Assembly: GCF_000482865.1 (NCBI RefSeq)
Contig: NZ_KI519516.1
Span: 19,755-83,754 of the forward strand
DNA: 64,000 nucleotides
DNA from: Actinokineospora inagensis DSM 44258
Lineage (GTDB): Bacteria; Actinomycetota; Actinomycetes; Mycobacteriales; Pseudonocardiaceae
Direction: 5' to 3'
Numbering within the stretch: position 1 is the stretch's first letter; the number at the start of each line of letters is the position of its first letter. The notes below the pieces were generated by a model that was given only the letters and a program-made list of their open reading frames with translations, was not told where the DNA came from and ran no database searches. A program made the translations under genes and the position numbers. Below, piece by piece: positions 5,667-42,362 of the stretch.

Positions 5667-5669
5667 GGC

Positions 5670-8044: not shown

Positions 8045-8045
8045 G

Positions 8046-8327: not shown

Positions 8328-8349
8328 GGCCCGCCTCCTGCTCGATCCG

Positions 8350-11304: not shown

Positions 11305-11314
11305 GTCGGCTCCC

Positions 11315-14191: not shown

Positions 14192-14193
14192 GG

Positions 14194-14777: not shown

Positions 14778-14781
14778 CCGG

Positions 14782-15225: not shown

Positions 15226-15243
15226 GCGCTGCCGCCCTTTCGG

Positions 15244-16773: not shown

Positions 16774-16927
16774 GGTCTGCCTCCAAGGAGTCGGCCGCTG
16801 ACGAAACTGATACTGGCCCCGGAAACCGTTGCCTCCCACGGCCCTCAGGCGGCGTGCGGGGGAACCGGCCGTTGCCCTAAGAGGCAGGCGGTCGCGTCCC
16901 AATCGTGATCGTGCGCGCGGTAACGGG

Positions 16928-21589: not shown

Positions 21590-24500
21590 ATGTCAGGCGG
21601 GCGCGCGGGCGTGCTGAGGGAATCTTCGTCACCGACCAGATATGTCGGCAACTGGGTCCGAGTCGACGGCGAGACCACCGGGTTCGGATTCTGCAAAGCG
21701 AAACTCCCCAACGGCGCCCAGGTCGTCTACACCGATATCCCCGGCGCGGCGGAAACCGAGGTCGTCGTCCCGGTCGAGAGATTGGTGCTGTCCAAGTTCT
21801 CCCCTGGTACCCGGGTGTGGATCCGGGGCAACCGCTACGGCTGGGTGTCCGCCGAGGTCGTGGCACCGACCGGGTTCGGCGAGTACCAGGTTCGGGCGGC
21901 CGGGTCGAGCGAGATCCTCCGGCTGCCCGGCGCCCAACTGATGGTGCGGTGGGACAAGCCCCTGCGGGACCCGGTCGAGGCGCTGGCCAAGGGGCTCTGC
22001 GACTCCCCCGAGTACTACACCACCCGCAAGGACTTCCTGGATCACCTGGTCCGCCAACGCGGCGCGGCCCGCGGTCTGTCGGCGGCGTTGTCCGCACCCA
22101 TCCGGCTCTACCAGCACCAACTGGACACCGCCGCCCGGGTCCTCGGTGATCCGGTCCTGCGCTACCTGCTCGCCGACGAGGTCGGTCTGGGCAAGACCAT
22201 CGAGGCTGGTCTCGTCCTGCGGCAGTTGCTGCTCGACGATCCCGGGATGACCGCGTTGGTGTCCACGCCTTCGACGCTGGTCAAGCAGTGGCAAGAGGAG
22301 TTGACCGATCGGCTGGCGCTCGGCGCGGCGCTCGAGGGCGGCCGGGTCGTGGTGACCCCGCACGAGGAACTGCCCAACCAGGCGAACCTGACCCGCTACG
22401 GCTTGGTGATCATCGACGAGGCGCACAAGGTGATCGACCCGCTGGGGCGGTCTCCGCGGACATGGAACCTGCTGCAGCACACGCGCGGACTGCTCCTGCT
22501 GTCCGCGACACCGATGCGGGGCAACCTGCCGACCTTCCTCGGCTTGCTGAACCTCATCGATCCAGTGGCCTTCCCCTCGTACAACCCCGACGCATTCGAG
22601 AAGCGCATAGCGCACCGTGAGTCCTCGGCGAACAGCGTGCGCGTGCTCAGCGCGCGCCGAGCCACACCTCGCCAACGCCGCAACGCGCTGGCCGACCTGG
22701 AATCGTTGCACGGCTCGGACGAGATCTTCACCCGGATGGCGCAAGAGTGCCACGCGGCCGACGAGTCCGATCTGGCGCCGTGGCGGGCTTTGGCCGAGTA
22801 CGTGCGGGAGACCTACCGGATCAGCAGGCGGATGATCCGACATCGCCGAGGCGGCTACGCCGCACTCGAGTACCCGGTCGCCGGGCGGCAGCTGACCACT
22901 CTCACGATCTCCGACCCGGCGCGGGACATCGTCGACGACTACCTGGACCGCCTGCGGGAACTGCACACCGACCCCGCCGCGAACCCGGCGTATGCGAACG
23001 TCCTGACCCACGCCCTTGGCGGCCCTCGAACGCTGGCGCACCACCTGGACAGATACCTGGGCATGGTCCGCCCGGGTGGCGCGTCGGCCCGGTTCCGGGC
23101 GCTCGCCGAGTCGACCGCCGCCCGCCTCGCACTGGTGGACACCGGGACAAGGCAGCGGACCGCGCTCGAGGTCACCGACGACCGGATGCGGAATGGGCAC
23201 AAGGTCGTCGTGGTCGGCACCTCCACGGCGGTGGCAGCCGACTTCCTGGCGGCCGCGGTCGACAGGTGGGGTGATCTGGTCCGCGGCCACCTCGACACCA
23301 TGGACCAAGCGGACCGCGACGACGCCGTGCTGGAGTTCCTGGAGTCGAAGGACGTGCAAGTACTCGTCGGCGACTTCACCCTGGAGGAGGGGCGGAACCT
23401 GCAGCGGGCACAGGTCCTGGTCAACCTCGACTTGCCGCTGGACGCCAATCGGCTCGAGCAGCGGATCGGCAGGTTGGACCGGTTCACCGAGCGCGGCGGC
23501 ACGGCTGAGGTCATCGTGTTCGACGAGCCGGGCAGCGACTGGCAGACCAACCAGATCAGGCTGTTCCGCGACGGTGTCGGGATCTTCGCTGACTCCGTCG
23601 CCACGCTGCAGATCAGGCTGGCGGCCCTGCTGAACGAAGTGATCGACTCGGTGGTCGAACTCGGGAGCGCCGCGTTCGCACCCGACCTGGACGCCTTGCG
23701 GAACGACCTCACCCGAGAACGGAAGATGGTCGACCTGCTGGAGGAGCTTGAGTCGATCACCACCGCCACCGACTTCGACGAGGCCGGTATGGCGGAGTTG
23801 GCCAGCGCGGACAACGACGACGCCGGGCTCCGCGCCGCCTTCGCCAGACTGACCCGGTCCCCGCGGGGTGGGATCTGGCTCAAGCCGGTCGACGGGCGAC
23901 CGGACGGCGTGGTCCGGTTCGAGATCGACGCGGGCAGGCTGGGACAGGCACGGGCACGCCGGATACCCGGTCTGTCCGAGGAAGACTCCCAGGAGGTCAT
24001 TCCGCTCCTGAGCACTCCGCGCGCCTACGCCCGCGACGTCGCGGTGTCCCGCCGGACACCGCCGCTGCGCGTCGGTGAACCGCTGGTGGACTGGCTCGAC
24101 CAGCACCTGCGTGTGGACGAACGCGGCCGGACCAGGGCGATGGTGCGCCCGACCGACACGGTGGACCTGCCCGAACTCTGGTTGGTCTGCGACTTCTTGG
24201 TCGAGTTCGACGCGTCGCACCTCGACGAGAAGGACGACGCGGTTCGCAGGCGCCTGCGCAGGCGAGGTGACGCGCTGCTGCCACCCGAGGTCGTGCGGAC
24301 GTGGACCAGCGTCGATGGCGTGGCGGACCCCGACCTGGTCACCAACGTCCTCGACGCGCCCTTCACCGAGGCCGACCATGTCCTGCGTGGACAAGCCTGG
24401 GACGCGGTGCTGCGGGCGCTGCCCGATTGGGCTCAGCAGTGCAGAACCGGCTATGAGGTGGCCAATCGCCACCTCAGCACCCACCCCGCGCTCACCGAAC

Positions 24501-24721
24501 GCCCGGCTGAGGCCGCGCGGCGGGCCGACTCCGAGGTCGACGCCCGACTGAGGGTGCTACGGGCTCGCTCGCACCGACTGCCGACCGTCGCCGAACGTGA
24601 GGGGGCCCGTCGCGACATGGTCCGCGATCAACAGTTGGGCGCGGCTCTGCTGCAAGGGGTCACCAATCCAGCGGTGTCGGTCATCGCTTGCGGTGGGATT
24701 GTGCTGTGGCCACGAGCATGA
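21590..24721 (+). CDS. dpdE: DpdE-like SNF2/RapA-type helicase
   Basis: This 1043-residue protein has an N-terminal beta-rich region (YVGNWVRVDGETTGFGF). The SNF2 helicase core follows: Walker A VGLGKT at 198-203, DEAH at 276-279, SAT-like motif LLSATPMRGNLP, and the C-lobe NRLEQRIGRLDRF near residue 620. This is the RapA-like arrangement. A long C-terminal region of unknown fold ends the protein. DpdE is the SNF2-type protein of the Dpd island, whose D-K genes are needed for restriction of DNA lacking the 7-deazaguanine mark. The assignment rests on this domain plus the exact order of the following seven genes. Start 21590 gives the conserved N terminus; GTG 21443 is possible. Confidence 0.88.
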   Translation: MSGGRAGVLRESSSPTRYVGNWVRVDGETTGFGFCKAKLPNGAQVVYTDIPGAAETEVVVPVERLVLSKFSPGTRVWIRGNRYGWVSAEVVAPTGFGEYQVRAAGSSEILRLPGAQLMVRWDKPLRDPVEALAKGLCDSPEYYTTRKDFLDHLVRQRGAARGLSAALSAPIRLYQHQLDTAARVLGDPVLRYLLADEVGLGKTIEAGLVLRQLLLDDPGMTALVSTPSTLVKQWQEELTDRLALGAALEGGRVVVTPHEELPNQANLTRYGLVIIDEAHKVIDPLGRSPRTWNLLQHTRGLLLLSATPMRGNLPTFLGLLNLIDPVAFPSYNPDAFEKRIAHRESSANSVRVLSARRATPRQRRNALADLESLHGSDEIFTRMAQECHAADESDLAPWRALAEYVRETYRISRRMIRHRRGGYAALEYPVAGRQLTTLTISDPARDIVDDYLDRLRELHTDPAANPAYANVLTHALGGPRTLAHHLDRYLGMVRPGGASARFRALAESTAARLALVDTGTRQRTALEVTDDRMRNGHKVVVVGTSTAVAADFLAAAVDRWGDLVRGHLDTMDQADRDDAVLEFLESKDVQVLVGDFTLEEGRNLQRAQVLVNLDLPLDANRLEQRIGRLDRFTERGGTAEVIVFDEPGSDWQTNQIRLFRDGVGIFADSVATLQIRLAALLNEVIDSVVELGSAAFAPDLDALRNDLTRERKMVDLLEELESITTATDFDEAGMAELASADNDDAGLRAAFARLTRSPRGGIWLKPVDGRPDGVVRFEIDAGRLGQARARRIPGLSEEDSQEVIPLLSTPRAYARDVAVSRRTPPLRVGEPLVDWLDQHLRVDERGRTRAMVRPTDTVDLPELWLVCDFLVEFDASHLDEKDDAVRRRLRRRGDALLPPEVVRTWTSVDGVADPDLVTNVLDAPFTEADHVLRGQAWDAVLRALPDWAQQCRTGYEVANRHLSTHPALTERPAEAARRADSEVDARLRVLRARSHRLPTVAEREGARRDMVRDQQLGAALLQGVTNPAVSVIACGGIVLWPRA

Positions 24722-27270
24722 AATCGCGGGACTCCACCGTCCTCGGCCATGGCCCGGCCGAGGACGACCGACTACGTGCCATGTTGCTCGACCCCGGGGC
24801 GGAGCACGGGTCCTTCGCCGACGACCTCTACGCCCGGGTGGCACACCTGTGCCGCACCCACGAGGGCAGCGATCTCGACTTCGCCGTCCTGGTCCGGCAC
24901 CTGCTCCGCCGGTGGAGCATGGCGGGCAAGCAGTCGGCGCTCCTGGCCACGGCCGCCGTCCTGTCCACCCGGCTCCGCGCGGCAGCGGCGGCAACCGACC
25001 TGGTGGAGGTCAACCCGGATGAATGGCGGGCAGTGCCGTGGCGTCCGGACTGGCTCGCCGACAACGGCGACGGCGTCAGCGGCGGCCCGGACAGCGCGGC
25101 GGTCGCCGGAACCGCCGATCAGGTCCGGTTCCACCAGGTCGACCTCCCCGCCGACCCGTTCTTCGAGAAGATCACCGGATTCACCTCCTACCGGACCCCA
25201 GGCCAGCAGGCCGCCGCACGAGCCGTGATGACGGTTCCGCCGGGCAGCACGATCACCGCGATGCTCCCGACGGGATCGGGGAAGACGCAGGTCGCGTTGT
25301 GCCTGGCCGAACGGTGGACGTCGAGCGTCTGCCTCATCGTGGTCCCGACCGTGGCATTGGCCCACGACTTCGAACGTCGGTTCCGTGACCACTACGCGGG
25401 CAGGAACGATCGGGTGAAACGGGAGGACCTCGTGTTCGCGTGGACCGCGGACACCCCGCCGGACACCAGGCGGCGCATCCGCGACGCGATCGTCCACGGC
25501 AGGCAACGGATCCTGGTGACCTCGCCGGAGTCCGTGACGCGCTCGTTGAGCGAGACACTGAAGCAGGCAGCGGCCAATGGCAGGCTCAGCGGACTGGTGA
25601 TCGACGAGGCCCACCTGGTCACCCAGTGGGGCCGTGACTTCCGACCCGAGTTCCGCACCCTGGCCGCCCTGCGGCGGGACCTGCTGGCCGAGGTGAACGA
25701 GGCTGATCGACCGCCCGTGACGTTGCTGCTGAGCGCCACGCTGGGCTCCACCGAACTGAACGACTTGCACATGCTGTTCGCCAAGCCCGACCCGATGACG
25801 CTTGTCGCGGCGAACGCGCTCCGGCAGGAACCGGACGTGTGGACCGCGGAGTCGTCGACCTCCGAGCAAAGGGCACAGAGGGTCCTGGAAACCCTCGCCC
25901 GCACCCCCCGTCCAGCTATCCTGTACGTGACCCGACCGGAGGACGCCGATCACTGGGCCACCAGGCTCCGCGCGGCGGGTTACGCCCGTCTGTCCGTTGT
26001 AACCGGCAAGACGAGCAACGACAACCGTGCACAGGTACTGGCCGACCTGCGCAGCGGTCCCGGGGAACCCGCACAGACGGACCTGGTGGTGGCCACCTCA
26101 GCGTTCGGGTTGGGTATCGACTACGCCCACCTCCGGACAATCGTGCACGCTTGTTTGCCGGAGACCGTAGACCGTTGGTATCAGGAACTCGGGCGCGGCG
26201 GGCGGGACGGTCACGCCTGTGCGGGTTTCCTGCTGACCGCCCCGGAGGACACCGACATGGCCGCGCGCCTCACCACGAAGGTCCTGTCGGCCGAAACCGC
26301 GTGGAAACGGTGGACCGACCTGTGGACGCACCGACGAGCACTCCGCAACGAGCAGTTCGTCGATCTCGAGGGCAGCACCGGCTCAGTCCAGGAAGGCAGC
26401 TACAACCGCAAGTGGAACGCCCAGTTGGTGCAAGGCTTGGTGGAGCTCGAGGCGATCGAGCACCATTTGGTCCACTTCGACGACGTTCTCACGTTGAGCG
26501 GGGACAACGACGTGCGCACGGACTGGGTCGCCGTTGATCCGATCCGAGCCGACCTCGCTGAACTGGACTACTGGAGACAGCACTGGGAGACGTGGCAACG
26601 AGACCAGTGGAAGCGATCCAATGCGTCTCTGACGGCCGTGCGCCGCGTGGTCGAGGGGCACGTCGCCGCGTGTGCTGAGATCGCGCGGTACTACCAGCCC
26701 GACCAGCAGGTGCTCGACCGGCACGGTCCAGCCGCCCGGTGGGTGGCACCCGAGGCCAAGTGCGGTCGGTGCCCGCGGTGCCGGCGGGACAAGGTGGAAC
26801 CACCTGGCGATCCGGCACCACGCCCGCTGCAAAGGTGGCCGATCGACGGTCCCGAACCCGACCTCGGCGGCCTCTCCGCACTGCGGCTCGACCCCGGGCT
26901 TGTCCTGCTGTCCGCTCCCGATCCGGTGGCAGTCGCACCCCAGCTCACCCCGTCGCTGGTCCGCCGCGGCATCAGGCACCTGGCCGGTCCGGTCGGTGCA
27001 CTTCCCCCGGTGGACGTGCTGTTCCACGACCAGAGCCCCGTGTCCCCCCTCTCGTTGACCCCACATGGGGCGTTCGTGGTTTACCCACTCGGGAAACGGA
27101 TCTCGCCGTTGTGGCTCAATCGCGGGAAACGGCTGAGCGCCCGAGATCCGGAGCGACCACCCGTGGACATCCTGTTGGTACCGTCCGACGCCCACATCGG
27201 GGACTTGGACGTGGTGCGGGACCTTCGCGCAGTCGATGCGTTGACCGCCTTGCAGATTCTCGGAGAGTGA
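24718..27270 (+). CDS. dpdF: DpdF-like RecQ-family helicase
   Basis: This 850-residue protein contains Walker A TGSGKT (185-190), the RecQ-like motif II block VIDEAHLVTQWGRDFRPEF (DEAH 296-299), LLLSATL, and motif VI YQELGRGGRDG near residue 490. A Cys cluster KCGRCPRCRRDK near 680 could be a zinc site. The domain content fits DpdF. Translation probably starts at ATG 24718, which overlaps the dpdE stop in an ATGA; TTG 24688 is an alternative. The C-terminal 150 residues are of unknown function. Confidence 0.88.
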   Translation: MKSRDSTVLGHGPAEDDRLRAMLLDPGAEHGSFADDLYARVAHLCRTHEGSDLDFAVLVRHLLRRWSMAGKQSALLATAAVLSTRLRAAAAATDLVEVNPDEWRAVPWRPDWLADNGDGVSGGPDSAAVAGTADQVRFHQVDLPADPFFEKITGFTSYRTPGQQAAARAVMTVPPGSTITAMLPTGSGKTQVALCLAERWTSSVCLIVVPTVALAHDFERRFRDHYAGRNDRVKREDLVFAWTADTPPDTRRRIRDAIVHGRQRILVTSPESVTRSLSETLKQAAANGRLSGLVIDEAHLVTQWGRDFRPEFRTLAALRRDLLAEVNEADRPPVTLLLSATLGSTELNDLHMLFAKPDPMTLVAANALRQEPDVWTAESSTSEQRAQRVLETLARTPRPAILYVTRPEDADHWATRLRAAGYARLSVVTGKTSNDNRAQVLADLRSGPGEPAQTDLVVATSAFGLGIDYAHLRTIVHACLPETVDRWYQELGRGGRDGHACAGFLLTAPEDTDMAARLTTKVLSAETAWKRWTDLWTHRRALRNEQFVDLEGSTGSVQEGSYNRKWNAQLVQGLVELEAIEHHLVHFDDVLTLSGDNDVRTDWVAVDPIRADLAELDYWRQHWETWQRDQWKRSNASLTAVRRVVEGHVAACAEIARYYQPDQQVLDRHGPAARWVAPEAKCGRCPRCRRDKVEPPGDPAPRPLQRWPIDGPEPDLGGLSALRLDPGLVLLSAPDPVAVAPQLTPSLVRRGIRHLAGPVGALPPVDVLFHDQSPVSPLSLTPHGAFVVYPLGKRISPLWLNRGKRLSARDPERPPVDILLVPSDAHIGDLDVVRDLRAVDALTALQILGE

Positions 27271-27276
27271 AGACCG

Positions 27277-28149
27277 GTGGACTTCCTCAAGACCCATGTC
27301 CGCGCCAGCGCGCAAGCACTGTTGATCATCTGCCGTTACCTCGGTGCACGGCCGGAAGGGCGGACTGTCGCCCAACTGCAGCAGGACCTGCAGCCGGAAG
27401 CGCTGGTGAAGCAGATCAGCCCGAAGGACAGTTCGCTGTTGCCCTCGCTGAAGATCGGCGAGTACCTGGGCATGGTGATCGCCGGCGGCGACTCCACTGA
27501 GGTGTGGTCACCCGGCCCCAGGGCCGAGGCCGCCTTGCTGGTTGACACACCCGGTCAGACAACTGCCTTCTACGTTGCCGTCTTGCAGGCGATCGGGTCC
27601 ACCGCGCTCGCAGACCTGGACTCGGACAACCGTCCGTCGGACGTGGCCATGGGACTGACCTGGTTGGGTTCCCTCGACCCGTACGACCGGATCGCGGCAA
27701 CCGCGGCCGATGCGGACCCCGTGGTGCAAGCCGCCCAGATGGCGGCGGCGATCGGCAACGGTACGCAGTGGCCGCAGTTCACCAGGTGGGCCAAGGTCCT
27801 CGGTCTCGTCACCGCGACCGCGGGCGGCCGGAAGTCGATGCTCGCTCCCGACTGCACGCGCGTGCTGCACCACCTCTTGCCCGCGCTACCGCGTGAGGCT
27901 GAGGCACGCCGATGGATCGACGAGGTCCACACGCAGATCCCGGTGTTGGGGCCGCGACTGGTCGCCGAACTCCCGCAACCCCCGGACACCACCTACGTCG
28001 GCGGCTCGCTCGCGCTCGCGCTGACCAAACTCGACCACACCGGGAAGATCAAACTGGTGGGCACCGCGGACGCGACTTCCAGCGTCATCGTGCGGTTGGG
28101 CGGACACGACCGCGTGGTCGGGCACATCCAGGTCCTGGAGGCGGCGTGA
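27277..28149 (+). CDS. dpdG: DpdG-like protein, function unknown
   Basis: This 290-residue protein has no catalytic motif that could be recognised. It is mainly helical and slightly acidic, with short motifs such as ICRYLGARPEGRTVAQLQQDL near the N terminus that could be a winged-helix. The name is given from its position between the RecQ-like and ATPase genes, as in the Dpd island. GTG 27277 has GGAGAG upstream. The stop overlaps the next start in GTGA. Confidence 0.75.
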   Translation: MDFLKTHVRASAQALLIICRYLGARPEGRTVAQLQQDLQPEALVKQISPKDSSLLPSLKIGEYLGMVIAGGDSTEVWSPGPRAEAALLVDTPGQTTAFYVAVLQAIGSTALADLDSDNRPSDVAMGLTWLGSLDPYDRIAATAADADPVVQAAQMAAAIGNGTQWPQFTRWAKVLGLVTATAGGRKSMLAPDCTRVLHHLLPALPREAEARRWIDEVHTQIPVLGPRLVAELPQPPDTTYVGGSLALALTKLDHTGKIKLVGTADATSSVIVRLGGHDRVVGHIQVLEAA

Positions 28150-31100
28150 CGACATTCGAGGGATTCCGCTGCTGGACGGCCGAATCGGTCCGGGAGACCG
28201 TCTACTCCGACATCGGAGCGCTGCCCAGCGAGGCCGACGCGCTGTTCCTGGCCGCCCACACCCCGATGTCCCTGGTGCACCTGCGCGGTACCGAGATCGT
28301 CGACGGCGACGGGTCCGAGCGAGACGTGCTCAAGGCGCTGCAGGCCGGGTTCGGCGACGCGAACCGCAACACCCTCATCGCGGTGACCGGGGAGTCCGGT
28401 GCGGGCAAGAGCCACGTCGTCCGCTGGGTGCACGCCCACCTGCCCACCGAGCTGGACAACTGCCACGTCCTGTACGTGCCACGCGCCATCCAGACGATCC
28501 GAGACCTGCTGCGCAGCATCGTCGTAGGTCTGCCCGCCGACAGCGGCCACAAACTGATGGCCAGGGTGGAGAACGCGATCGGTGGGATCAGTGAAGCACA
28601 GTTGCGCGACCGGCTGTTGGAAGAGACCCGCTTCGCCCTGACCTGGACGCTACCCGCCGAGGAAGCCGCGCCGGACGAGACCGAGGACGAACGCGAAGCA
28701 CGGCAGGACCGCAACTTGCTGTTGGGCGAACCAGACGACAACGACAAACGCAGGCACGGGTTGGCCGACCTGCTGCAGGTCACCAAGATCAACGAGGCGT
28801 TGTTGCGACCGGGTGGCACGCTCGACGACATCGTCAAGTCGCTGTTCGCCGAGGTGTCCCGGCGCGACAACGCGGGGTTCCAGCTCGGCGACCTCCCGAT
28901 AGGCGTACCCGGCATTCGCAGCGCGGTGAGCAAGTACGAAGAACTCTCCGAGCTGTGGGACCTGGTCTCCCAGGAACCGCAGCAGGCACTGGACGTGCTC
29001 AACCGCGCTGTCGAGAGCGGTCTGGCCACCGCGATCGGGCTGAACCCGCGCGAGGGCGAGACCCTGGACGACCTGTTCCGAGAGGCCCGCCAGACCCTCC
29101 GCGCCCAGGGCAAGGAACTGGTCCTGCTGTTCGAGGACCTCGCCCAGTTCGGCTTCATCAGTGGCGAACTGTATGACCAGTTCGCCACCCAGCCCGGCAC
29201 GGACATGGCCCCCCTACGAGCGGTCTTCGCCGTGACGGATGGCCCGTTCAAGAAGATCGTGCGTACCGTCAATACCCGGATCACCCACCAGTTCGCGGTT
29301 TCCGACACGGCGCTGCCGCGACGCGACGCGTTCATCGCCCGCTACCTCAACCTGGTGCGCCTGGGCCACAGCCGGGTCGACGCCGCGTGGCGGCGGGCAG
29401 ATCGGGACGACGACACCTGGCTGCCGAACGCCTGCGACAGCGGTCCCGACGGTGCGCCGTGCCCCGTGCGGGCCCAGTGCCACTCGGGGTTCGGCAACGT
29501 CGCGATCGAGGGTCTGGGCGAAGTCGGTCTCTACCCGTACAACGCGGTGGCTCTGCGGCGGGCGTTGGACCGGCCCACGACGCCGGACAAGCCTCGCACG
29601 CCTCGAAGCGACATCGACGTGTGCGTGTCCGAGACCCTGGTGGAGACGCACGCCCACCTCGGTCGCGGCACCTTCCCGCACGAGCGCGTCTTCACCAGGT
29701 TCGATCACGAGCACGAGTTGCCCAAAGCGGCCCTGGACGACGGTAGGGCAGGCGAGGAAGGGGCGCGGTACTTCCGCACGGCGGTGCTCTGGGGTGACGT
29801 CCAACGTCCGAACCCGGTTGTGCTCGCGGCCTTCGGACTCGCAGGCACGAACAGTACCGACGCAGGGTCCACGAAGTCGGCCAAGCCGGATCCACCCGCC
29901 GCTCCCAAGCCCGCTCCACGACCTCAAACGGCCGCGACTCCGGCCGGCGCTCCGGCGACCCAGGCACGCAAGCAGAAGAGTCCGCTGCAGCCGTTGTTCC
30001 AGTGGGAAAGCGGTTCTCAACTGACCGAACGTGACGTCAAGAAGTACCGGTCCGCGCTGTACACGCTCGTCCTCACTCGCGTGGACCTCGACCGGGACCT
30101 GATCAACCTGACCGACGGCCTCACCAGCGAACTGTTCAGCGGGTACTTCAAGGTCACGTCCTTCCACTTCGGAGTGGACGCCTACGGCCAGCGAGCCGGA
30201 ACGGACAGCATCACCTTCGACCTGGAACGCCGATCCGAGGACGTCAAGGTCCTCGCCGCCGCCAGGTGGTACGTCGACCACGGGCACTGGGACCCCGAAC
30301 AGGGCGACTGGGAGTGGCCCACGAGCTACACGACGCTCGACCTCATGGTCAGCCTCGAAACCCGGCTCGACGAGTGGGCCGAGACTGTCCGCACCGGCTT
30401 CCTGGCCAAGGTCCGGGTGAAGGACCTGGCCAGGGCCGCGCTCGGAGTCCACGCCGTCGCCCTGCTCTGCACCGGTACCGACCCGCGCGACCTGAGGACG
30501 GTGCGCGCGGCGCTCGCGAATCCGGTGGCGGTCAACATCGCCAACGCGTGGGCGGACGTCGCGAACCTGGCCAGGTCGGTGCTGGGGCAAGACACGATCA
30601 GCGAGATCATCGAGGGGTTCACCGGCTCACGCCAGGGCGCCGGCGCGACCCAACTCGTCGACGTCGCCACGCTCGAGATCGGCCTGCGACAGGCCGTGAC
30701 AACCCCGTCCGCGTTCCTGGACCAGGTGGTGAACAACTTGCGCACCGTCGAGCCCCGGCTGGTGAAAGCCGCGAAGGAGATGCTCACCGCCATCAGGCGG
30801 GCAGGCGCCGCGCTCGTGGACTCGGTCACCGAAGCCCAGGGCGTGTTGACCGACACCCTCCAGGGAGCCAAGCCCCGGTTGGTCGTGGGACCTGCGCAGG
30901 AACTGGCCAGGCAGGCGCTCACCAGCGGTCTGTTCCGGCCCGCGGAGGGCCGCAACGCGTTCTTGGAATCGGTCGACGTCCTCCAGTCCACCCCGGACGA
31001 CTTGCCGTTGACGTGGCGGCCATCGGACGGTTCCGACCAGACCGACAACGCGGTGCACATCCAGTCCTGGGCGGGCGCGGCGATTCGTGCTGCGGGCGCG

Positions 31101-31268
31101 ATGGCGGTGGTCCACGACGCGGTGCTGCGCACCGAAGAGGAGTGCAGGCGCAACACCCCGGAGTCCGACGACATGGAACGGCTGGAACAGCGAGTGCAGG
31201 GCAAACTGGACGAGTTGACCGGACTACTGGCGCGGTTCGGTTCGGAGGCGGGTGCGCTCGATGGCTAG
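28146..31268 (+). CDS. dpdH: DpdH-like P-loop ATPase
   Basis: This 1040-residue protein has Walker A GESGAGKS at residues 82-89 and a likely Walker B, ELVLLFEDLAQFG, near 325. This is the arrangement of a large STAND/AAA-like ATPase. A Cys group (NACDSGPDGAPCPVRAQC) near residue 435 could bind zinc. A Pro/Ala linker (about 580-610) separates the ATPase half from a C-terminal helical half of unknown function. DpdH is the ATPase of the Dpd restriction set. The start codon lies inside the dpdG stop. Confidence 0.85.
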   Translation: MTTFEGFRCWTAESVRETVYSDIGALPSEADALFLAAHTPMSLVHLRGTEIVDGDGSERDVLKALQAGFGDANRNTLIAVTGESGAGKSHVVRWVHAHLPTELDNCHVLYVPRAIQTIRDLLRSIVVGLPADSGHKLMARVENAIGGISEAQLRDRLLEETRFALTWTLPAEEAAPDETEDEREARQDRNLLLGEPDDNDKRRHGLADLLQVTKINEALLRPGGTLDDIVKSLFAEVSRRDNAGFQLGDLPIGVPGIRSAVSKYEELSELWDLVSQEPQQALDVLNRAVESGLATAIGLNPREGETLDDLFREARQTLRAQGKELVLLFEDLAQFGFISGELYDQFATQPGTDMAPLRAVFAVTDGPFKKIVRTVNTRITHQFAVSDTALPRRDAFIARYLNLVRLGHSRVDAAWRRADRDDDTWLPNACDSGPDGAPCPVRAQCHSGFGNVAIEGLGEVGLYPYNAVALRRALDRPTTPDKPRTPRSDIDVCVSETLVETHAHLGRGTFPHERVFTRFDHEHELPKAALDDGRAGEEGARYFRTAVLWGDVQRPNPVVLAAFGLAGTNSTDAGSTKSAKPDPPAAPKPAPRPQTAATPAGAPATQARKQKSPLQPLFQWESGSQLTERDVKKYRSALYTLVLTRVDLDRDLINLTDGLTSELFSGYFKVTSFHFGVDAYGQRAGTDSITFDLERRSEDVKVLAAARWYVDHGHWDPEQGDWEWPTSYTTLDLMVSLETRLDEWAETVRTGFLAKVRVKDLARAALGVHAVALLCTGTDPRDLRTVRAALANPVAVNIANAWADVANLARSVLGQDTISEIIEGFTGSRQGAGATQLVDVATLEIGLRQAVTTPSAFLDQVVNNLRTVEPRLVKAAKEMLTAIRRAGAALVDSVTEAQGVLTDTLQGAKPRLVVGPAQELARQALTSGLFRPAEGRNAFLESVDVLQSTPDDLPLTWRPSDGSDQTDNAVHIQSWAGAAIRAAGAMAVVHDAVLRTEEECRRNTPESDDMERLEQRVQGKLDELTGLLARFGSEAGALDG

Positions 31269-31971
31269 CCGCCTGCCGGACTGGCTCACCGAGGCCGCGC
31301 GAACCGTCGAGCGGGCAAGCGACGACAAGGTCAGGCAGAACCGGATGAACCACCTGCACGAGGTCGACACCACCGTGACCAAGATGCTGGGCAAGCTGGC
31401 TCCGCTGGCCGCCGCGGCCGAAGTGGGAGCGAGCCGGTGGTGGCCGGGCGCGAGTCCACCCGCGGAGACCTTCGGGAAGGTGGCTACCGCGCGCAAGTCC
31501 CTCGACACGCGCCCGTGGAACGCTGCGGAGGCCGCGCTCGACAAGACCATCACCGCGCTCGAGGCCGACCTCAGGTTGGCCTGGCGCACCTACGTGGACC
31601 GGGTCATCAAGGGTGGGAAGTCCGGGCTCCGGGACCTCGTCAAGGTGTTGGGGTCGGCGCCGGGGCTCACCGAGGTCGCAGCGGAAGTCGACAGCGCTCT
31701 GGGCGCCCTGAACAAGGTGCGCTTGGCGTTGCCGGACGAGCAGGCGATGGCGACGGTGACTGCCGCGGCCGAAGCACTTGACCGACTGGCGGACCTCTTG
31801 CCCGCCGACGTCCAGGAGTTCGTCGACGCCGCCACCCAGGAGGGCGCGGAACTGTCCGCGCTGACCCCGGAGGTGATGTCCTGGCTCCTGACGAACGGCG
31901 TCGTGGGCGAGTTCCGCGTCGTTGTCGGTGGACAGGCCACGACCAAGGGACGGGGGCACACTCGTGGCTGA
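31261..31971 (+). CDS. dpdI: DpdI-like protein, function unknown
   Basis: This 236-residue protein is predicted almost wholly helical, with heptad-like stretches (about residues 10-60 and 80-190), and no recognisable catalytic motif. It overlaps dpdH by 8 bases and dpdJ by 8 bases. Its size and place between the ATPase and the DEVH helicase match dpdI. ATG 31261 is preferred; GTG 31252 is in frame. Confidence 0.7.
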   Translation: MASRLPDWLTEAARTVERASDDKVRQNRMNHLHEVDTTVTKMLGKLAPLAAAAEVGASRWWPGASPPAETFGKVATARKSLDTRPWNAAEAALDKTITALEADLRLAWRTYVDRVIKGGKSGLRDLVKVLGSAPGLTEVAAEVDSALGALNKVRLALPDEQAMATVTAAAEALDRLADLLPADVQEFVDAATQEGAELSALTPEVMSWLLTNGVVGEFRVVVGGQATTKGRGHTRG

Positions 31972-34900
31972 CAACCAACTCCGCCGAGACCTGGAGGCGT
32001 TGAGCCGCCTGGAGTTGCACGAGGCGGAACTACTGGCCTGGGGAGCGGTCGGCGCCGAGTGGACCGCCGACGAGATCCAGGACGTCCTCGACCGGACGAA
32101 TGCCGATCCAGGCGTGCTCCAGCGGTTGGTGGACAAGGCCCTGGTTGTTCGGACACCGAACCAGGGGTACCGCACCCGCAGTGCGGAGACGATGCGGTTG
32201 TTGGCAACCCTGCGGCAGGCGTTCGGCAACACGCGGGTCACCGAGGGCAAGTCCCTGGTGCTCGACCACCGATACCTGCACCGGCCGCGGCGGCGGCCAA
32301 AGCGGGACCTGCCCGCGGAACGGGCACTGACCGGCGCGTACCGCTACCTGGAGGGCAACGGCGAAGCGGTGGTACGAGCGATCGCGCCTCCGCACATCTC
32401 GGGGTTTCAGCAGCGCAGCACCGAGACCGTCCTCAAGGCGTTGAGCGGCCGCGATTCATCCGGTGTGATCGTGACCGCGGGCACCGGTAGCGGCAAGACA
32501 CTGGCCTTCTACCTCCCGCTGTTGGCCTGGCTCGCGGACCAAGCGGCCAAGCAAGGTGAGCCTGGCACACTCGCCTTGGCCCTGTACCCGCGCAACGAAC
32601 TGCTGAAAGACCAACTACGGGCTCTGCTGCGGTACCTGGAAACCGCAGCACGCGCGGGCGCAGGCCCGACGCTCAGCGTGGCGACGTGGTTCGGACCCAC
32701 TCCCGTGGACGCCCGCAGTGTCAAACACGTGTGGGACCTGAGGGGGAAGGACTACCTCTGCCCGTACCTGCGCTGCCTGCGGTGCAACGGCGACCTCGTC
32801 TGGCGTGCGTCGGACATGTCGGCCAAGCCCGTCCGTGAACGGTTGGAATGCGTCCAGACGGGCTGTGGCGCTCGCGTCGACGGAAGCGTTCTGCGGCTGA
32901 CCCGCGACAGCGCACAACGACAGCCCGCGCACATCATGTTGACCACGACGGAGTCACTCAACCGGCAACTGTCGGCACCGGGAAACCTGGTCGCCTTCGG
33001 TGTCGTGGCACCGCCAGGGGCGAAAAGGGGTCCCACTCTCGCCACAGTTCTGCTGGACGAGGTGCACACCTACGAGGGACCCACCGGGGCGCAGAACGCG
33101 ATGCTGTTCCGCAGGCTCAAGCACCGGCTGAACCGCGATCTCGTCTGGGTGGGACTCTCGGCGACGCTGCGAGAGCCGGAGCCGTTCCTCGCGCGCCTGG
33201 TCAACCTGAAGTCGTCTGCGGTGGACTCGGTGAGCCCGCGGCCGGACGAAATGGAGGTAACCGGTGCCGAGTACCTGGTCGCGTTGCGGCACAACCCGCA
33301 TTCCAGCACCGGCCCGCTGTCACTGAGCATCCAGACGGCCATGGCGCTGACGCGCGGCTTGGACGCCCCGCAGAACAACCCCATCGACCCGCCCCTGTCG
33401 TCCAACGGCGTGTTCGGCACCAAGGTGTTCGTGTTCACCGACAAGCTCGACAGCACGAACCGGCTGTACTGGGACTTGTGTGACGCAGAGGGAACGGCTC
33501 TGTCCAAGCGGCGACCCAGGTCGCTGGCGCACCTGCGGTCAACCGGGCAAGGCGAACTGAAGGCAGAACACCAGGAACCGCCGGACCTGCGCGACCAGGC
33601 AGGCCAGTTGTGGTGGCTGGCCGAGCACCTTGGCCACAAGATCGACGACGACCAAGCGCTGAAGGTCGGGCGGACCAGTTCGCAGGACCGCGGAGTGGCC
33701 GCCGAGGCGCAAGTGGTGGTTGCCACCGCGACCCTGGAGGTCGGCTTCGACGACGACCAGGTCGGCGCGGTGATCCAGCACAAGGCCCCGCACGACGCGG
33801 CGCAGTTCCTGCAGCGGAAGGGGCGCGCGGGTCGGAGTGTGCAGACCCGGCCGTGGACCGTGGTCGTGTTGAGCGACTGGGGTCGCGACCGGCAGGCGTG
33901 GGACGCGTACGACGCCATGTTCGATCCCGAGTTGCCGCCCCGCACCATCCCGGTGGAGAACCTGTACGTGCTGCGGATCCAGGCGGTGTACGCGCTGCTG
34001 GACTGGCTCGCCTTGTCACTGCGGTACAAGGGCCGGGAGTCCACCTGGACCGACCTGTCCGGTTCCGCCGAGCAACTGTTCCCCACCAACACCAACGCCC
34101 GGGAAGCGGCCGAGGCACGGCAGCGGCAACTGCGGTCCGAGTTGCGCGGACTCCTCGAGAACAGTGGCAAGCGGGTCCTGCTGCGCAGGCACCTGCAGCG
34201 CGCCCTCGGTCTGGGCAGTGACGAGCAGGCCGAGTCCCTCGTGGACACCCTGCTGTGGGAGTCACCCCGCCCACTGCTCCTCGCCGTGGTGCCGACCATG
34301 CTGCGCAGGCTGGAGGACAACTGGCGGGGTGAACCCGTGGGCATGGACAACGGGCTGCAGACCCGGACGCCGCTGCGCGACTTCGTTCCCGGCAACCTGT
34401 TCGACGACCTGCTGGTGCCCGACGTGGAGTTCACCGTGCCGGGGCGTCGCGGGAAGTCCGAGATCCAGCACCTGCCCGCGCTGCGCGCCCTGCGCGAGTT
34501 CTGCCCCGGCAACGTCAGCAGGCACTTCGGGGTGTACTTCGACAACAAGCGGCACTGGATCCCGCTGCCTGCCATCGCCCCAGGCGAGCCCGCGCGTCGG
34601 GTCGACATCAAGGACGTCTACAACGCTCGGTTCGTCGACCGGGTAACCGTGGGCGACCTGGCGGTCGACGTCCACTCGCCGGTCAGCGCGACACTCGAAG
34701 CCGTGGACAACGGCGTCAAGGACGCGTCGTCGATGATCCCCGCGTGGGAGTTCCACGTGAGCAAACTCGGCTCCGGCAACCAGGTCAGCCTGGACCGCGG
34801 CGCCGAGCGGTTGCTCAGTGGCCTGACCGCCCACCTGCACGTCCAAGGGGGTGGTGTGCGGACCATTCGGTACGCCCGAACCGCCCGCGGTACCTTGTGG

Positions 34901-36373
34901 AACCCGGCCGCGGAGCCCGTCCACCTGGAGTTCGGGGTCGGTGGCGCCACCGATTGGGTACCCGCCGCGCTCGGTGTCGACCTGCACTGCGATGCCCTGG
35001 AAGCGGTTGTCGAGGTCCCCGCCGAACCCGGTGAACCGACGCGCGTCGAACGAACCGGCAGGCTCCGGTACATGGTGCTGGTCGAGGCCGAGCTCCCGGA
35101 GACGATGTCCGTCTTCGACCGCGACCTGCTCGCCCAGATCCTCATCGCGGCGATCGTCCACGCCCAGGTCGGGGGTCCGGGGCTGCGCGAAGGCGCGGAC
35201 TGGTCGACCGCCCTGGTCTCGGCCGCCCAGACCCTGGGTATCGTCGGCAACGGGCACGACGACGCCGCCAAGGCCCGGGCGTGGCGCGAATGGCTCACCG
35301 ACCACGACGTCGTCGCGGCGGTACGCGAGGTGGCAGGCGAGGTCTTCGCCCCAGACCGCTCGCCGAAATGGCTCGCCTGGTGGCGCGAGACCTACACGGT
35401 GACCGCTGCCCACTTCGTGTTGAACGCGCTGTCGGCCCGATGCCCCGGCATCGACCCCGATGAGGTCGTGGTCGACTTGGACCCCGAGCACGACGACCGG
35501 TTCTGGCTCTCGGAACGTTCGCCAGGCGGTACCGGCCAGATCGAGGCGTTCCAGCGGGAACTGGCACGAGACCCGAGCGCGTTCAGCCGGGCGCTGGAGG
35601 ATGCCATGCTGCCAAGCGCGTTGGAGACCGTGGACGAGCAACTGACCGCCCTGTTGCGGGCTCCGTCGACCGGGGTGACCGCCGCGCTCGACGAACTCCG
35701 CGACGCGTGGCGATCCGGGCACGAAGCCGTGACAGCCGCCGTGGCCAACGTCGAACGGGCCGCCAAGGACAGTGACATCTCCCTCGACGGTCCCGCCCGA
35801 GTCACGTTGAGCACTCGCGTGGCGGGCCCCGGCGCGCACCCCAACCTGGTAGGCAAGCTCCGGGACTGGCTGGATCTGCGCGACCAGGCCGCCGAGGCCG
35901 CGGAGTTGGCGATCGACCCCAGAACGCTCGGAGTGCTCGTCGCCACCGACAAGAGCGCCGACGACCTCTTGCACCTGGGCGCGGACACCGAGGAGCCACG
36001 TCGGGCCAGGGCGGTGAGCAACGTGTTGTGGCCGTGGGGCGCCGCTTCCGGTTCGCCGTCGTCGTTGTACGGGACCGTGCCGGAGATCGCACCGTCCTTG
36101 GTCCGCTCGCACGTCCGGTTGAGCCCCAGCACCATCCAAGTGTCCACTTGGGACGAGAAGATCCGCGCGGCGGTGCACGCGGCGCTGATCGACGCGGGCG
36201 AGATCGTGGTGGCGGTGCGGCAGTCGGCACGCGATCTGCTCCGCACCGTGCTGCTGGACCTGCAAGTCCAGCCGATCGAGGTGGGTGCGCTGCTGGCACA
36301 CCCGGTGACGGTCGGGCTGCGGGAGAGCACCAACATCGTCGAGGTCCGCGTGCTGCTGCGGGAGGCGCTGTGA
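31964..36373 (+). CDS. dpdJ: DpdJ-like DEAD/DEAH-box helicase with Cys-rich insertion
   Basis: This 1469-residue protein has an N-terminal winged-helix-like region and then an SF2 core: GTGSGKT at 173-179, DEVH at 365-368, LSATL, and motif VI QFLQRKGRAGRS near 615. Between motifs I and II is a Cys cluster (CPYLRCLRCNGDLVW, then CVQTGCG) that looks like a zinc-binding insertion. The overall plan resembles large Z1/DrmA-like helicases of defence systems. About 800 C-terminal residues have no recognised domain. It is the largest gene of the operon and overlaps both neighbours. Confidence 0.85.
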   Translation: MADNQLRRDLEALSRLELHEAELLAWGAVGAEWTADEIQDVLDRTNADPGVLQRLVDKALVVRTPNQGYRTRSAETMRLLATLRQAFGNTRVTEGKSLVLDHRYLHRPRRRPKRDLPAERALTGAYRYLEGNGEAVVRAIAPPHISGFQQRSTETVLKALSGRDSSGVIVTAGTGSGKTLAFYLPLLAWLADQAAKQGEPGTLALALYPRNELLKDQLRALLRYLETAARAGAGPTLSVATWFGPTPVDARSVKHVWDLRGKDYLCPYLRCLRCNGDLVWRASDMSAKPVRERLECVQTGCGARVDGSVLRLTRDSAQRQPAHIMLTTTESLNRQLSAPGNLVAFGVVAPPGAKRGPTLATVLLDEVHTYEGPTGAQNAMLFRRLKHRLNRDLVWVGLSATLREPEPFLARLVNLKSSAVDSVSPRPDEMEVTGAEYLVALRHNPHSSTGPLSLSIQTAMALTRGLDAPQNNPIDPPLSSNGVFGTKVFVFTDKLDSTNRLYWDLCDAEGTALSKRRPRSLAHLRSTGQGELKAEHQEPPDLRDQAGQLWWLAEHLGHKIDDDQALKVGRTSSQDRGVAAEAQVVVATATLEVGFDDDQVGAVIQHKAPHDAAQFLQRKGRAGRSVQTRPWTVVVLSDWGRDRQAWDAYDAMFDPELPPRTIPVENLYVLRIQAVYALLDWLALSLRYKGRESTWTDLSGSAEQLFPTNTNAREAAEARQRQLRSELRGLLENSGKRVLLRRHLQRALGLGSDEQAESLVDTLLWESPRPLLLAVVPTMLRRLEDNWRGEPVGMDNGLQTRTPLRDFVPGNLFDDLLVPDVEFTVPGRRGKSEIQHLPALRALREFCPGNVSRHFGVYFDNKRHWIPLPAIAPGEPARRVDIKDVYNARFVDRVTVGDLAVDVHSPVSATLEAVDNGVKDASSMIPAWEFHVSKLGSGNQVSLDRGAERLLSGLTAHLHVQGGGVRTIRYARTARGTLWNPAAEPVHLEFGVGGATDWVPAALGVDLHCDALEAVVEVPAEPGEPTRVERTGRLRYMVLVEAELPETMSVFDRDLLAQILIAAIVHAQVGGPGLREGADWSTALVSAAQTLGIVGNGHDDAAKARAWREWLTDHDVVAAVREVAGEVFAPDRSPKWLAWWRETYTVTAAHFVLNALSARCPGIDPDEVVVDLDPEHDDRFWLSERSPGGTGQIEAFQRELARDPSAFSRALEDAMLPSALETVDEQLTALLRAPSTGVTAALDELRDAWRSGHEAVTAAVANVERAAKDSDISLDGPARVTLSTRVAGPGAHPNLVGKLRDWLDLRDQAAEAAELAIDPRTLGVLVATDKSADDLLHLGADTEEPRRARAVSNVLWPWGAASGSPSSLYGTVPEIAPSLVRSHVRLSPSTIQVSTWDEKIRAAVHAALIDAGEIVVAVRQSARDLLRTVLLDLQVQPIEVGALLAHPVTVGLRESTNIVEVRVLLREAL

Positions 36374-36900
36374 ACCGGGTCATCCGCAAGTCGCACGCGC
36401 AGAGTTCGGTTGAGGTGTTCAACCTGCTGGTCAGCCTATTCACCGCCGAACTCGTGCGGCCCAGCCGACACCTGTGGCTGGTGTCGCCGTGGATCACCAA
36501 CGTCGACCTGATCGACAACTCCGCGGGCACCTACCCGGTGCTGTCCCGATTCGGGCACCGTCCAGTCCGACTCGCCGAGATCGTCGCGGTCCTCGCCGCC
36601 AACGGCGCCAAGGTGATCGTGGCCACGACGTCCGACAGGCGCAATGAGGCCTTCCTGCACCGGCTGCGCGACTTGGCGAACGACCTCGATGTCGTCGACC
36701 GGGTGCGGATCGTCGTCGACCCGGACCGCAAACTGCACGCCAAGGCGGTGACCGGCGACAACTACGCGCTGGTCGGGAGTATGAACATCACCTACAACGG
36801 CATTCACTTCCTGCAGGAGGACGTGGAGTTGAAGACCGACCCGGCTTACGTCGCCCAGGCCAGGATGGACGCCGACCACAGGTTCGGGGGCCTGCGGTGA
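36370..36900 (+). CDS. dpdK: DpdK-like phospholipase D-family protein
   Basis: This 176-residue protein carries one HKD signature: H123 in KLHAKAVTGDNYALVGSMN, i.e. HxK, then D, then GSxN. PLD-family nucleases with a single HKD act as dimers, so it is the best candidate for DNA cleavage in this operon. The N-terminal LWLVSPWITNVDLID block is typical of the fold. DpdK is the PLD protein of the Dpd island; DISARM carries a comparable protein (DrmC). GTG start and TGA stop overlap both neighbours. Confidence 0.88.
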   Translation: MNRVIRKSHAQSSVEVFNLLVSLFTAELVRPSRHLWLVSPWITNVDLIDNSAGTYPVLSRFGHRPVRLAEIVAVLAANGAKVIVATTSDRRNEAFLHRLRDLANDLDVVDRVRIVVDPDRKLHAKAVTGDNYALVGSMNITYNGIHFLQEDVELKTDPAYVAQARMDADHRFGGLR

Positions 36901-39044
36901 TCAAGGCGACCGGGCTACGCCGGTGCGTCGGCGATCTCGCCGTCTACCGAGCCTTCCAGGACACCTTCGAGGTGCTGATCGACGAGCAACTGCGCAAGCT
37001 CACCGGGGCGCCCGGTGAGTGGGTGGTCATCCCGCTCAACAAGCGCAATCCCCAGGGCTTCTACCTGCTGTCGGCGGATCTCGAAGGGCAACGCCGCGGC
37101 CGGGAGGTGCTGGACGCCTTTCTCGGGCCGACGACCGCGGCGCTGACCAGCATGCGGCTGAGCAAGCTGCAGCAGGTCGACCGAGACCTCGAAACCGCCG
37201 GGGTCGCCCACCTCTCCTACGTGAAACGGGTCGCCGACCACCAGAAGATGGTGGACCGGATCCGAATCGCCGTGTCGACCATCGCCTCGAAGGACGCCCG
37301 CCCGCGGCCCACCCTGGTTCCCCACCTGTACCGGCTGCGTGACTTCCGGTTCGCCCTGGCACAGCAGAACTCGACCGAGGCGAACAACGCACTGCATGAC
37401 CTGCAACTCAGCGGGCAGTTGAGCCTGGAGAACCTGCGGTTCCTCGAGGTGGAACTGCACGGCCGCCTCGGCCGCTGGGCGGAACTGCGGCGACTGCACT
37501 ACTTCAACGAACTGCTGATCACCCGCAGGCCGCGCGCCATCAACGAACTCCTGCTGGAGATGATCTGGCAGATCGACATCGCTAACATCGGTGTCGACCG
37601 ACCGCTGTCCGAGATCGCGGACGAGGCCGATCTGACCTCGTTGTTCGGGGCTGTCATCGGGTCGCTGGACGTCCCCGGCACGGAGCCCGGCCGGAAGGTC
37701 GCCGCCATCGCGGCCGCCAACGCGGGCGACGAACAACGCCTGACCCGCATCCTCGACGCGGCGGGCCCGAGCGAACGCGACGACCTCCAGCGGCTGTTGG
37801 ATCGACGCGAGACTCCGGCGCCCACCTCGCCACCTGCCGTGGGTCTGTACGAACTGCACAGCCAAGGTCAGTTCACCGCAGTGGTCCAGCGCTACATCGA
37901 ACACCCAGAACCCGGCACGACGATGTTGGCTGTGGACGCACTCCTGAGGATGGAGGACCGCGAGTACGCACCTGCCGTACTCGCGGCGGTGGAGGGCTTT
38001 CACGCTTCGAACCTGTTGCCACAGTTGACCCGCGGCAACAGGCGGGACATCGAAGACCTGCGCGCGCTCGTTGACTCGACCTGCTCGGACTGGGCCAGTT
38101 GGCTGCACCGCGTGGGTGCGGGACCGTGGCCGGACGCCGAACGCATCTTGCGCGCGAGCCACGAGGACTGGCCCGATCTGGAGACCCTCACCGCGGACGA
38201 GGCGGACCAAGCGGCCGAAGACCTGCTCCACGCGTCGATCGTGGCCAACGCCGACCAAGTGATCGCGTCGCTCGACCTGCTCTGCCTCGCCGCCGCCCGC
38301 ACGACCTCGAGACCGCACCTGGCACAGTTCAGCGAATGCGTGCTGGAGATCCTGAAGAACCAGGAGAACATCAGCGGCCCCGTTCGCCACGCCTACCTCG
38401 GCCTACTGGACAGCATCCTGGCAACTGGCCCGACCGCCGACCGCTACGAGAGCGCGATCGAGGGTGCGAGCACCTTGTGGACGCTGATCGCCGCCCCCAT
38501 CGCGGTCGATTGGGGCATCGATCTGGTGGACCTGTTGGTGGCCAATCCGAGTCCGAGTCCCGGGACGATGATCAGCGTGATCAGCGCGGTACTCGGCCGG
38601 ATCCGGGACATGCCCGTCGACCGGTTGAGCCTGCGGCAGCGCACCGCGGTCAACCACCAGGCCGAGCACGCAGGCCTGCCTGTCGTGTCGGCTACCGCGC
38701 CGACCACGGAACCCGACACAGCCTGGTCGACCCTGGCCAACAGTGAGATCGGCATCTATACCCTGCGACCCGACGCCGTCGACCAGTTCCGGGATCGCCT
38801 CCAGCGGATGCAGGTTCCCAAGTCGGTCACCGTCACCGGCAACAGCGACAAGGTGTCCACACCGATACTGCGTGCGCTCGCAGGACGCGCCGACTACATG
38901 ATCGTCGACACCTGGCACGCCGCCCACGCCGCGACCAACGCGATCGACGAGATACTGCCGCGTGACCGGCAACTCCTCCCCGAGGGTCGGGGCGTCTCCG
39001 CCTACATCCGCGTGCTGGAAAGTGCATTGTCCCAACACGTCTGA
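36897..39044 (+). CDS. dpdD: DpdD-like protein, last gene of the dpd operon
   Basis: This 715-residue protein has no recognised catalytic motif. Long helical stretches in the middle (about 150-460) suggest a repeat scaffold, and a C-terminal alpha/beta region is rich in TVTGNSDKV and DYMIVDTWHAAHAATN-like segments. The name comes from size and neighbourhood. In the founding Dpd island dpdD sits beside the modification genes dpdA-C; here it follows dpdK and those genes are missing. The stop is 17 bases from the convergent broken MFS gene. Confidence 0.75.
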   Translation: MIKATGLRRCVGDLAVYRAFQDTFEVLIDEQLRKLTGAPGEWVVIPLNKRNPQGFYLLSADLEGQRRGREVLDAFLGPTTAALTSMRLSKLQQVDRDLETAGVAHLSYVKRVADHQKMVDRIRIAVSTIASKDARPRPTLVPHLYRLRDFRFALAQQNSTEANNALHDLQLSGQLSLENLRFLEVELHGRLGRWAELRRLHYFNELLITRRPRAINELLLEMIWQIDIANIGVDRPLSEIADEADLTSLFGAVIGSLDVPGTEPGRKVAAIAAANAGDEQRLTRILDAAGPSERDDLQRLLDRRETPAPTSPPAVGLYELHSQGQFTAVVQRYIEHPEPGTTMLAVDALLRMEDREYAPAVLAAVEGFHASNLLPQLTRGNRRDIEDLRALVDSTCSDWASWLHRVGAGPWPDAERILRASHEDWPDLETLTADEADQAAEDLLHASIVANADQVIASLDLLCLAAARTTSRPHLAQFSECVLEILKNQENISGPVRHAYLGLLDSILATGPTADRYESAIEGASTLWTLIAAPIAVDWGIDLVDLLVANPSPSPGTMISVISAVLGRIRDMPVDRLSLRQRTAVNHQAEHAGLPVVSATAPTTEPDTAWSTLANSEIGIYTLRPDAVDQFRDRLQRMQVPKSVTVTGNSDKVSTPILRALAGRADYMIVDTWHAAHAATNAIDEILPRDRQLLPEGRGVSAYIRVLESALSQHV

Positions 39045-41850: not shown

Positions 41851-42362
41851 AGCGAGCACCCGCGACAGCAAGTGGCCTAGACCACTACGGTCAGTGTGCC
41901 GAGGACCGCCGAGGCCAGGACCCTTTTCCCAGTACGGTGCGAGCTGCGCCATCCGGAGGAACCGGCGTCGCACTGCCCCACTGGCCCGGTCGATCACCGC
42001 GCACCGTGTTCGCTCATTCACTCGATCATCGAGTCATACCACCATCTGCCGGTCAACGCTCCGCCGAACACGTGCCGGAGGCTGGTCCGACCACCGTCAT
42101 CGGGGTACGCCGGTTGAGTGGTTGGCGGCAATCGCGGTTCGGTTTCGCCTCCTGGGATGACCAGGTGCCCTAGGGTTTGCGGTGGAAGCTCGCGCTCGCG
42201 GGGGGAGCGCCGGGCGACGGCTACGCGGAACGGGTCCCGGGGGGTGCCCGTCGTACCGTCACCGGTCGGGCCGGTCAGGATCGCCCCTCCCTCGCCCAAG
42301 CGAGATCACGCACAGGCGTCCTCCCGCGCGGGAGGAGCCGCACTTGGGGAGGTGCGAGCGGT

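Follow-up and report, generated by a model that had tools for sequence, protein, structure and literature searches.

The question raised by the 64,000-nucleotide stretch of Actinokineospora inagensis DSM 44258 studied here (the window; contig C1:19755-83754 of a 7.28 Mb genome in 97 contigs, 99.2% complete) is why an operon of Dpd restriction genes stands in it with no gene for the corresponding DNA modification alongside. The operon, at 21590-39044 in window positions, reads dpdE-F-G-H-I-J-K-D, with order and coordinates as earlier described. The original prediction left two answers open: an unlinked modification half, or a D-K machine with another self/non-self signal, which would be a new type of defence system. 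Our analysis leads, with high confidence, to the first, a complete Dpd restriction-modification system whose genes are spread over separate loci, split but otherwise ordinary. This reading is based on the presence of the genes with their motifs intact, on their co-occurrence and on the separation of the two halves.

The restriction operon comprises the following genes, in window positions.

21590..24721, plus strand: dpdE, SNF2-type helicase with SNF2 and Helicase_C domains (PADLOC DpdE, 1183.7 bits; ATG at 21590)
24688..27270, plus strand: dpdF, DEAD-box helicase with DEAD and Helicase_C domains (PADLOC DpdF, 717.9 bits; mechanical open reading frame, start uncertain)
27277..28149, plus strand: dpdG (weak DpdG match, 13.1 bits, E=0.01; aligned members; position)
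27912..31268, plus strand: dpdH, AAA ATPase with AAA_16 domain and Walker A motif (PADLOC DpdH, 1155.7 bits; mechanical open reading frame)
31252..31971, plus strand: dpdI (genome-wide best place of the DpdI profile, 31774-31920 inside the gene, at E=0.60, a level also met in 1/14 control genomes; aligned members; position)
31922..36373, plus strand: dpdJ, YprA-family helicase (PADLOC DpdJ, 1299.2 bits over 1460 residues; mechanical open reading frame, profile from residue 24)
36028..36900, plus strand: dpdK, PLD-family nuclease with HxKx4D (PADLOC DpdK, 165.6 bits, profile from residue 116; mechanical open reading frame)
36897..39044, plus strand: dpdD (PADLOC DpdD, 625.8 bits)

The proposed identity of these genes is borne out by strong PADLOC matches for six of the eight (E, F, H, J, K and D, at 166-1299 bits), and homologues of all eight occur, order kept, in close relatives. 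For dpdG and dpdI, which have no strong match, the assignment is tentative and draws on weak profile matches, position, those homologues and alignments: two DpdG profiles each find 7/8 members of the dpdG alignment at E<=1 (best 1.8e-6), and 2/8 members of the dpdI alignment match DpdI (best E 7.1e-5), the dpdI protein searched alone with profiles having given no match. Regarding gene starts, the alignment of the Crossiella open reading frame begins at the residue of the ATG at 21590, with tblastn reaching six residues further upstream, and distant homologues of dpdH begin closer to 28120 than to the mechanical start at 27912. Motifs are intact, namely GxGKT in E, F and J, Walker A in H and HxKx4D in K, and the predicted division of labour within D-K would make E, F and J helicases, H an ATPase and K a nuclease.

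The reported lack of modification and preQ0 genes around this operon was likewise reproduced: tblastn searches (E<=0.01) with DpdA, DpdB, DpdC, FolE2, QueC, QueD and QueE found none in the window, in the 19.75 kb before it or in the 20 kb after it, and the window contains 0 N. When the search for dpdA-C was extended to the whole genome, the genes were found on contig C14, so at the genetic level the modification half is indeed unlinked.

C14:13596-14375, minus strand: folE2 (226 bits)
C14:14385-15086, minus strand: queC (244 bits)
C14:15195-16133, divergent from folE2 and queC: dpdC (369.7 bits)
C14:16130-17407, divergent from folE2 and queC: dpdA, TGT-like (603.1 bits)
C14 from 17400, up to a 10-N scaffold gap at 17736: start of dpdB (127.9 bits over 112 aa)

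DpdA is an intact open reading frame, and its residues C368, C370, C373 and H395, which we take to be the TGT-family zinc site, are invariant in 16/16 DpdA sequences. A second 7-deazapurine cluster on C17 (L005:7982-11670) holds a second copy of QueC together with QueE and QueD, opposite a TGT and an FmrO-like rRNA methyltransferase; this TGT was rejected as a DpdA candidate, scoring 147.3 bits to TGT and 19.6 to DpdA. With dpdC, dpdA, dpdB, folE2 and queC on C14, and queD and queE on C17, the Dpd and preQ0 gene set is therefore present, dpdB being in pieces. The supply genes for preQ0 are thus FolE2 and QueC from C14 and QueD and QueE from C17, the last below its curated cut-off.

In the published Dpd scheme, as given in the available portions of PMC6884629, PMC11888242 and PMC12707154, DpdA exchanges guanine for preQ0 in DNA, DpdC makes ADG, and D-K attacks unmarked DNA. 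Chemistry and restriction in A. inagensis would, by analogy with the described systems, follow the same course: FolE2, QueD, QueE and QueC would make preQ0, DpdA with DpdB would swap DNA guanine for it, DpdC would turn part of the inserted preQ0 into ADG, and the helicases, ATPase and PLD nuclease encoded in the window would attack DNA that lacks the mark. DpdB acts beside DpdA, and a 2016 PNAS paper is reportedly a further source for the scheme.

We analyzed the co-occurrence of the two halves in 397 genomes of the order, in named relatives carrying this DpdE and in 396 genomes of the phylum, together with 14 control genomes. At E<=0.001 the DpdE profile gave matches in 7/14 control genomes and DpdA in 1/14 and 3/14, and for this reason only the high-scoring class was counted; at E<=1e-30 DpdJ and DpdA matched in 0/14. 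In the order sample, DpdE reached at least 160 bits in 10 genomes (next best 76.7) and DpdA at least 577 bits in 10 (next best 33.4), and these were the same genomes, none having one full protein without the other. Lower matches, at most 33.4 bits for DpdA in 16 order genomes and at most 76.7 bits for DpdE in 172, were not counted as these proteins. DpdA was also present in 7/7 named genomes with this DpdE, one of eight named loci (L016, on a 3.3 kb contig of a metagenome-assembled genome, 38%) having been dropped, and in the phylum sample DpdJ at E<=1e-30 was found in 2/396 genomes, the only two that hold DpdA. Saccharothrix sp. ALI-22-I, a named carrier, is genome G389, and G401 is the same by identical contig and coordinates, so it was counted once. 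In total dpdA occurs in 17/17 distinct genomes with a full DpdE or DpdJ (10 + 6 + 1), the two proteins by which these genomes were scored. In the more divergent of the two DpdE groups described below, queries for D, G and I often gave no match, so that for this group D-K stands for E, F, H, J and K at the least; in G204, a genus mate of A. inagensis, D and I queries gave none, and for G434, which is in neither tree, the search covered J, K and D and found all three.

The single-island layout is usual, with the halves linked on one contig within ~20 kb in 12 of the 17 genomes, but function is not known to depend on it. Two genomes are undecidable (G014 and Micromonospora sp. C31, G402), since both halves finish near contig ends, and were not counted as separated. 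The remaining three are separated: A. inagensis, where modification and restriction genes do not share one island (C14 vs C1); G204 (C98 ~9-16 kb of 273 kb vs C121 ~166-182 kb of 216 kb); and Crossiella sp. SN42 (C56 ~14-21 kb of 281 kb vs C1 ~129-147 kb of 707 kb). From contig positions, the minimum separation is ~43 kb in G204 and ~143 kb in Crossiella. The DpdE tree pairs A. inagensis with Crossiella as sisters (100/100), and so, at moderate support, does the DpdA tree (89/85). The DpdE tree has 14/16 rows, G150 and G017 being left out because the short loci did not yield their DpdE as a single open reading frame. We recognised no account of separated dpd halves in a literature search that lay outside the papers of 2016 (PNAS) and 2024 (MMBR), and one may well have been published already. 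The GATOR-GC survey, in the part of its text available, required dpdA and dpdB and inspected windows around them; with windows centred in this way, unlinked halves would escape pairing.

Several observations weigh against a split but ordinary system. The flanks of the split loci were compared with those of Crossiella and gave no common neighbourhood for either half; the neighbours differ, and so do not show that the split arose only once. At 15/15 relatives' loci examined, two dpdB open reading frames flank dpdA, and dpdB1, which adjoins dpdA in all of them, is absent from A. inagensis: on C14 (L003:15195-17735) no dpdB1 separates dpdC from dpdA, which share a four-base overlap, unlike those loci, and the DpdB profile finds no place in the genome beyond four pieces (C14, C47, C48 and C79). 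The dpdB on C14 itself stops at the 10-N gap, and its 3' part is probably the piece on C48. QueE scores 30.6 bits against a curated cut-off of 206.1, while being 70-80% identical to the QueE that adjoins queC in relatives' dpd clusters. Finally, in a QueE and QueD search of 13 loci, queD and queE are absent from the C14 cluster; the remaining 12 loci come from 11 relatives, and both genes are present in 10 of them, while L083 has a partial QueE at the locus edge and L118, with neither, belongs to the same genome as L117, where both occur. With dpdB1 gone and queD and queE not at C14, modification might be weaker or altered.

Taken further, these losses would mean a decaying system, with modification impaired and D-K inactive. 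We consider this unlikely, because the absence of dpdB1 is offset by eight restriction genes and a dpdC and dpdA that are all open, with motifs intact where tested, and by QueD and QueE on C17; an active D-K without marking should, moreover, harm its host. Less probable still is the other answer left open at the outset, that D-K obeys another self signal as a new kind of defence and the dpdC-A-B genes on C14 are incidental. The separation of the halves and the absence of dpdB1 and local queD/queE would suit it, and so would a plasmid of Nostoc sp. C057. This plasmid (L154, 9425-30740), from outside Actinomycetota, is annotated with dpdE-F-G-H-(unnamed)-J-K-D in the window's gene order; of the 25 plasmid records that match DpdA, 20 were listed and it is not one of these, in a search of plasmid records only, with its chromosome unsearched, and it is possibly a further separated system or an exception to the company of D-K with dpdA. 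The presence of dpdA in all 17 distinct genomes with full DpdE or DpdJ argues against an alternative signal, as does the order sample, where neither full protein occurs without the other, and the A. inagensis DpdA is an intact open reading frame whose branch (0.23) is not longer than that of Crossiella (0.24). Least probable of all is an assembly error hiding truly adjacent halves: although the genome is in 97 contigs with a 10-N gap within the C14 dpdB and N runs in the first 19.75 kb of C1, and contig ends explain the apparent split of G014, the 64-kb window is free of N and, like its flanks, of modification genes, C47 and C48 (the candidates for continuing dpdB) have no D-K genes in their last 30.7 kb and 20.4 kb, and the halves in G204 and Crossiella lie at least the distances given above apart.

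A further result concerns how restriction modules are distributed over modification modules. DpdE forms two deep groups, the divergent one being 30-39% identical to A. inagensis DpdE over aligned parts; DpdE served to define the restriction group, with both trees already in view, and for G150 and G017 (2/16 genomes) only profile score and tblastn identity were used to assign them to the divergent group. Mapped onto the DpdA tree, the restriction group changes 5 times, and starred branches force at least 4 of these changes; this is about as often as with shuffled labels, which give a mean of 5.5, with 239/500 shuffles as low as the observed 5, and a single clade for the group's nine carriers is rejected (p-AU 5.8e-9). 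In two genomes of one genus, G189 and G295, the modification loci are 97% identical over 7.1 kb and the DpdE proteins 38% identical over 430 residues. Judging from these trees, restriction modules reassort relative to modification modules, and the simplest reading is that different D-K modules would work with one common mark. D-K thus appears to be an exchangeable module satisfied by a generic mark, in which case linkage would be unnecessary for function.

The dpdB pieces of A. inagensis point to two copies. In a tree of dpdB from 12 of the relatives' loci, B1 is a single group (12/12 rows, support 100/100), making B1 and B2 old paralogues. B2-type genes with near-full bodies lie on C47 and C48 (the profile also matched in 1/14 controls); in the assembly they do not differ over the first 480 bases, and their C-terminal halves are 56% identical. 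The C-terminal half of the contig-end body on C48 is 80% identical to the dpdA-linked dpdB2 of a genus mate. The copies on C14 and C79 have differing upstream neighbours. By gene content, C14-C48 is a putative join giving the dpdA-linked copy, and C79-C47 a putative join giving one integrative element.

C79 (L099:1-1027) and C47 (L098:5215-10687): second dpdB copy
C79-C47, putative element: AAA_33 kinase, dpdB, Prim-Pol, excisionase-like, integrase and FtsK-like genes

An off-locus dpdB in G150 (L147:10932-11972) is similarly placed, 1.2 Mb from the dpd locus and beside Prim-Pol-like and integrase-like genes (tblastn). At E<=1e-10, dpdB occurs in 10 Dpd-bearing genomes of the 397 and in none of the other 387, and extra element-borne copies in 2/10 vs 0/387 (Fisher p 5.7e-4, a count made post hoc). 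Plasmid records with a dpdB match number 17. The contexts viewed for three of them (Nonomuraea, Euzebya and one of four Variovorax) show no dpdA in the displayed stretch, the plasmid gene tables being incomplete. The Nonomuraea gene (L153:11962-13068) lies near dnaE; that of Euzebya (L156:7352-9116) directly follows an AAA ATPase, as on A. inagensis C79; and that of Variovorax (L155:9920-11487) stands with a DUF6884 gene, adjoining type I-E CRISPR genes. An IMG/VR match (L152) was rejected as a lone dpdB, being a linked dpd island with J, K, A, C, B, queC and queE matches. As a hypothesis only, element-borne dpdB copies may help elements evade Dpd. A broader proposal, tentative and rather doubtful, is that D-K would be a plug-in module that reads a generic 7-deazaguanine mark and is swapped freely among hosts sharing the marking genes, conjugative integrative elements carrying a dpdB of their own for timely marking of their DNA as anti-restriction.

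Other features lie near the operon. The minus strand of the window at 5067-18931 holds a contractile injection system gene set, with a sheath, two gp19-type tube proteins, a CIS_tube/LysM protein, PAAR, baseplate proteins and an AAA ATPase. Just downstream of the operon are genes for an ankyrin-repeat protein (40569-41498) and a GGDEF protein (42177-43838).

These results remove one candidate for a new defence type and underline that calls of a missing half made at window level require a whole-genome check. A. inagensis, G204 and Crossiella sp. SN42 become test cases for the separate deletion of marking and cutting; there is evidence for D-K modules interchangeable against a common mark, and element-borne dpdB offers a testable lead on mobile DNA that survives Dpd.

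Among known systems, DISARM has YprA-family, SNF2 and PLD components in common with this operon and was rejected on PADLOC scores (DrmD 111 vs DpdE 1184, DrmA 55 vs DpdJ 1299 and DrmC 24 vs DpdK 166 bits). BRIGADE also combines Dpd-like effectors with a 7-deazaguanine cluster; in the portion of PMC12458937 available it is described as limited to halophilic archaea, with ARMADA-like YprA helicases, and it was set aside by this description, the best profiles in A. inagensis being those of Dpd. The YprA-family helicase of the window scores 1299 bits with DpdJ and at most 67 bits with the related DruE profiles, PADLOC 2023 having no visible ARMADA profile. The closest counterpart is the Dpd island dpdA-K of Salmonella Montevideo and Kineococcus radiotolerans, as far as it is described in the available parts of PMC11888242, PMC12707154 and PMC6884629. 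Unlike these islands, A. inagensis keeps its modification and restriction operons apart, lacks dpdB1 and has queD and queE confined to a second 7-deazapurine cluster; like them, it holds D-K, dpdA, dpdB, dpdC and preQ0 genes within one genome.

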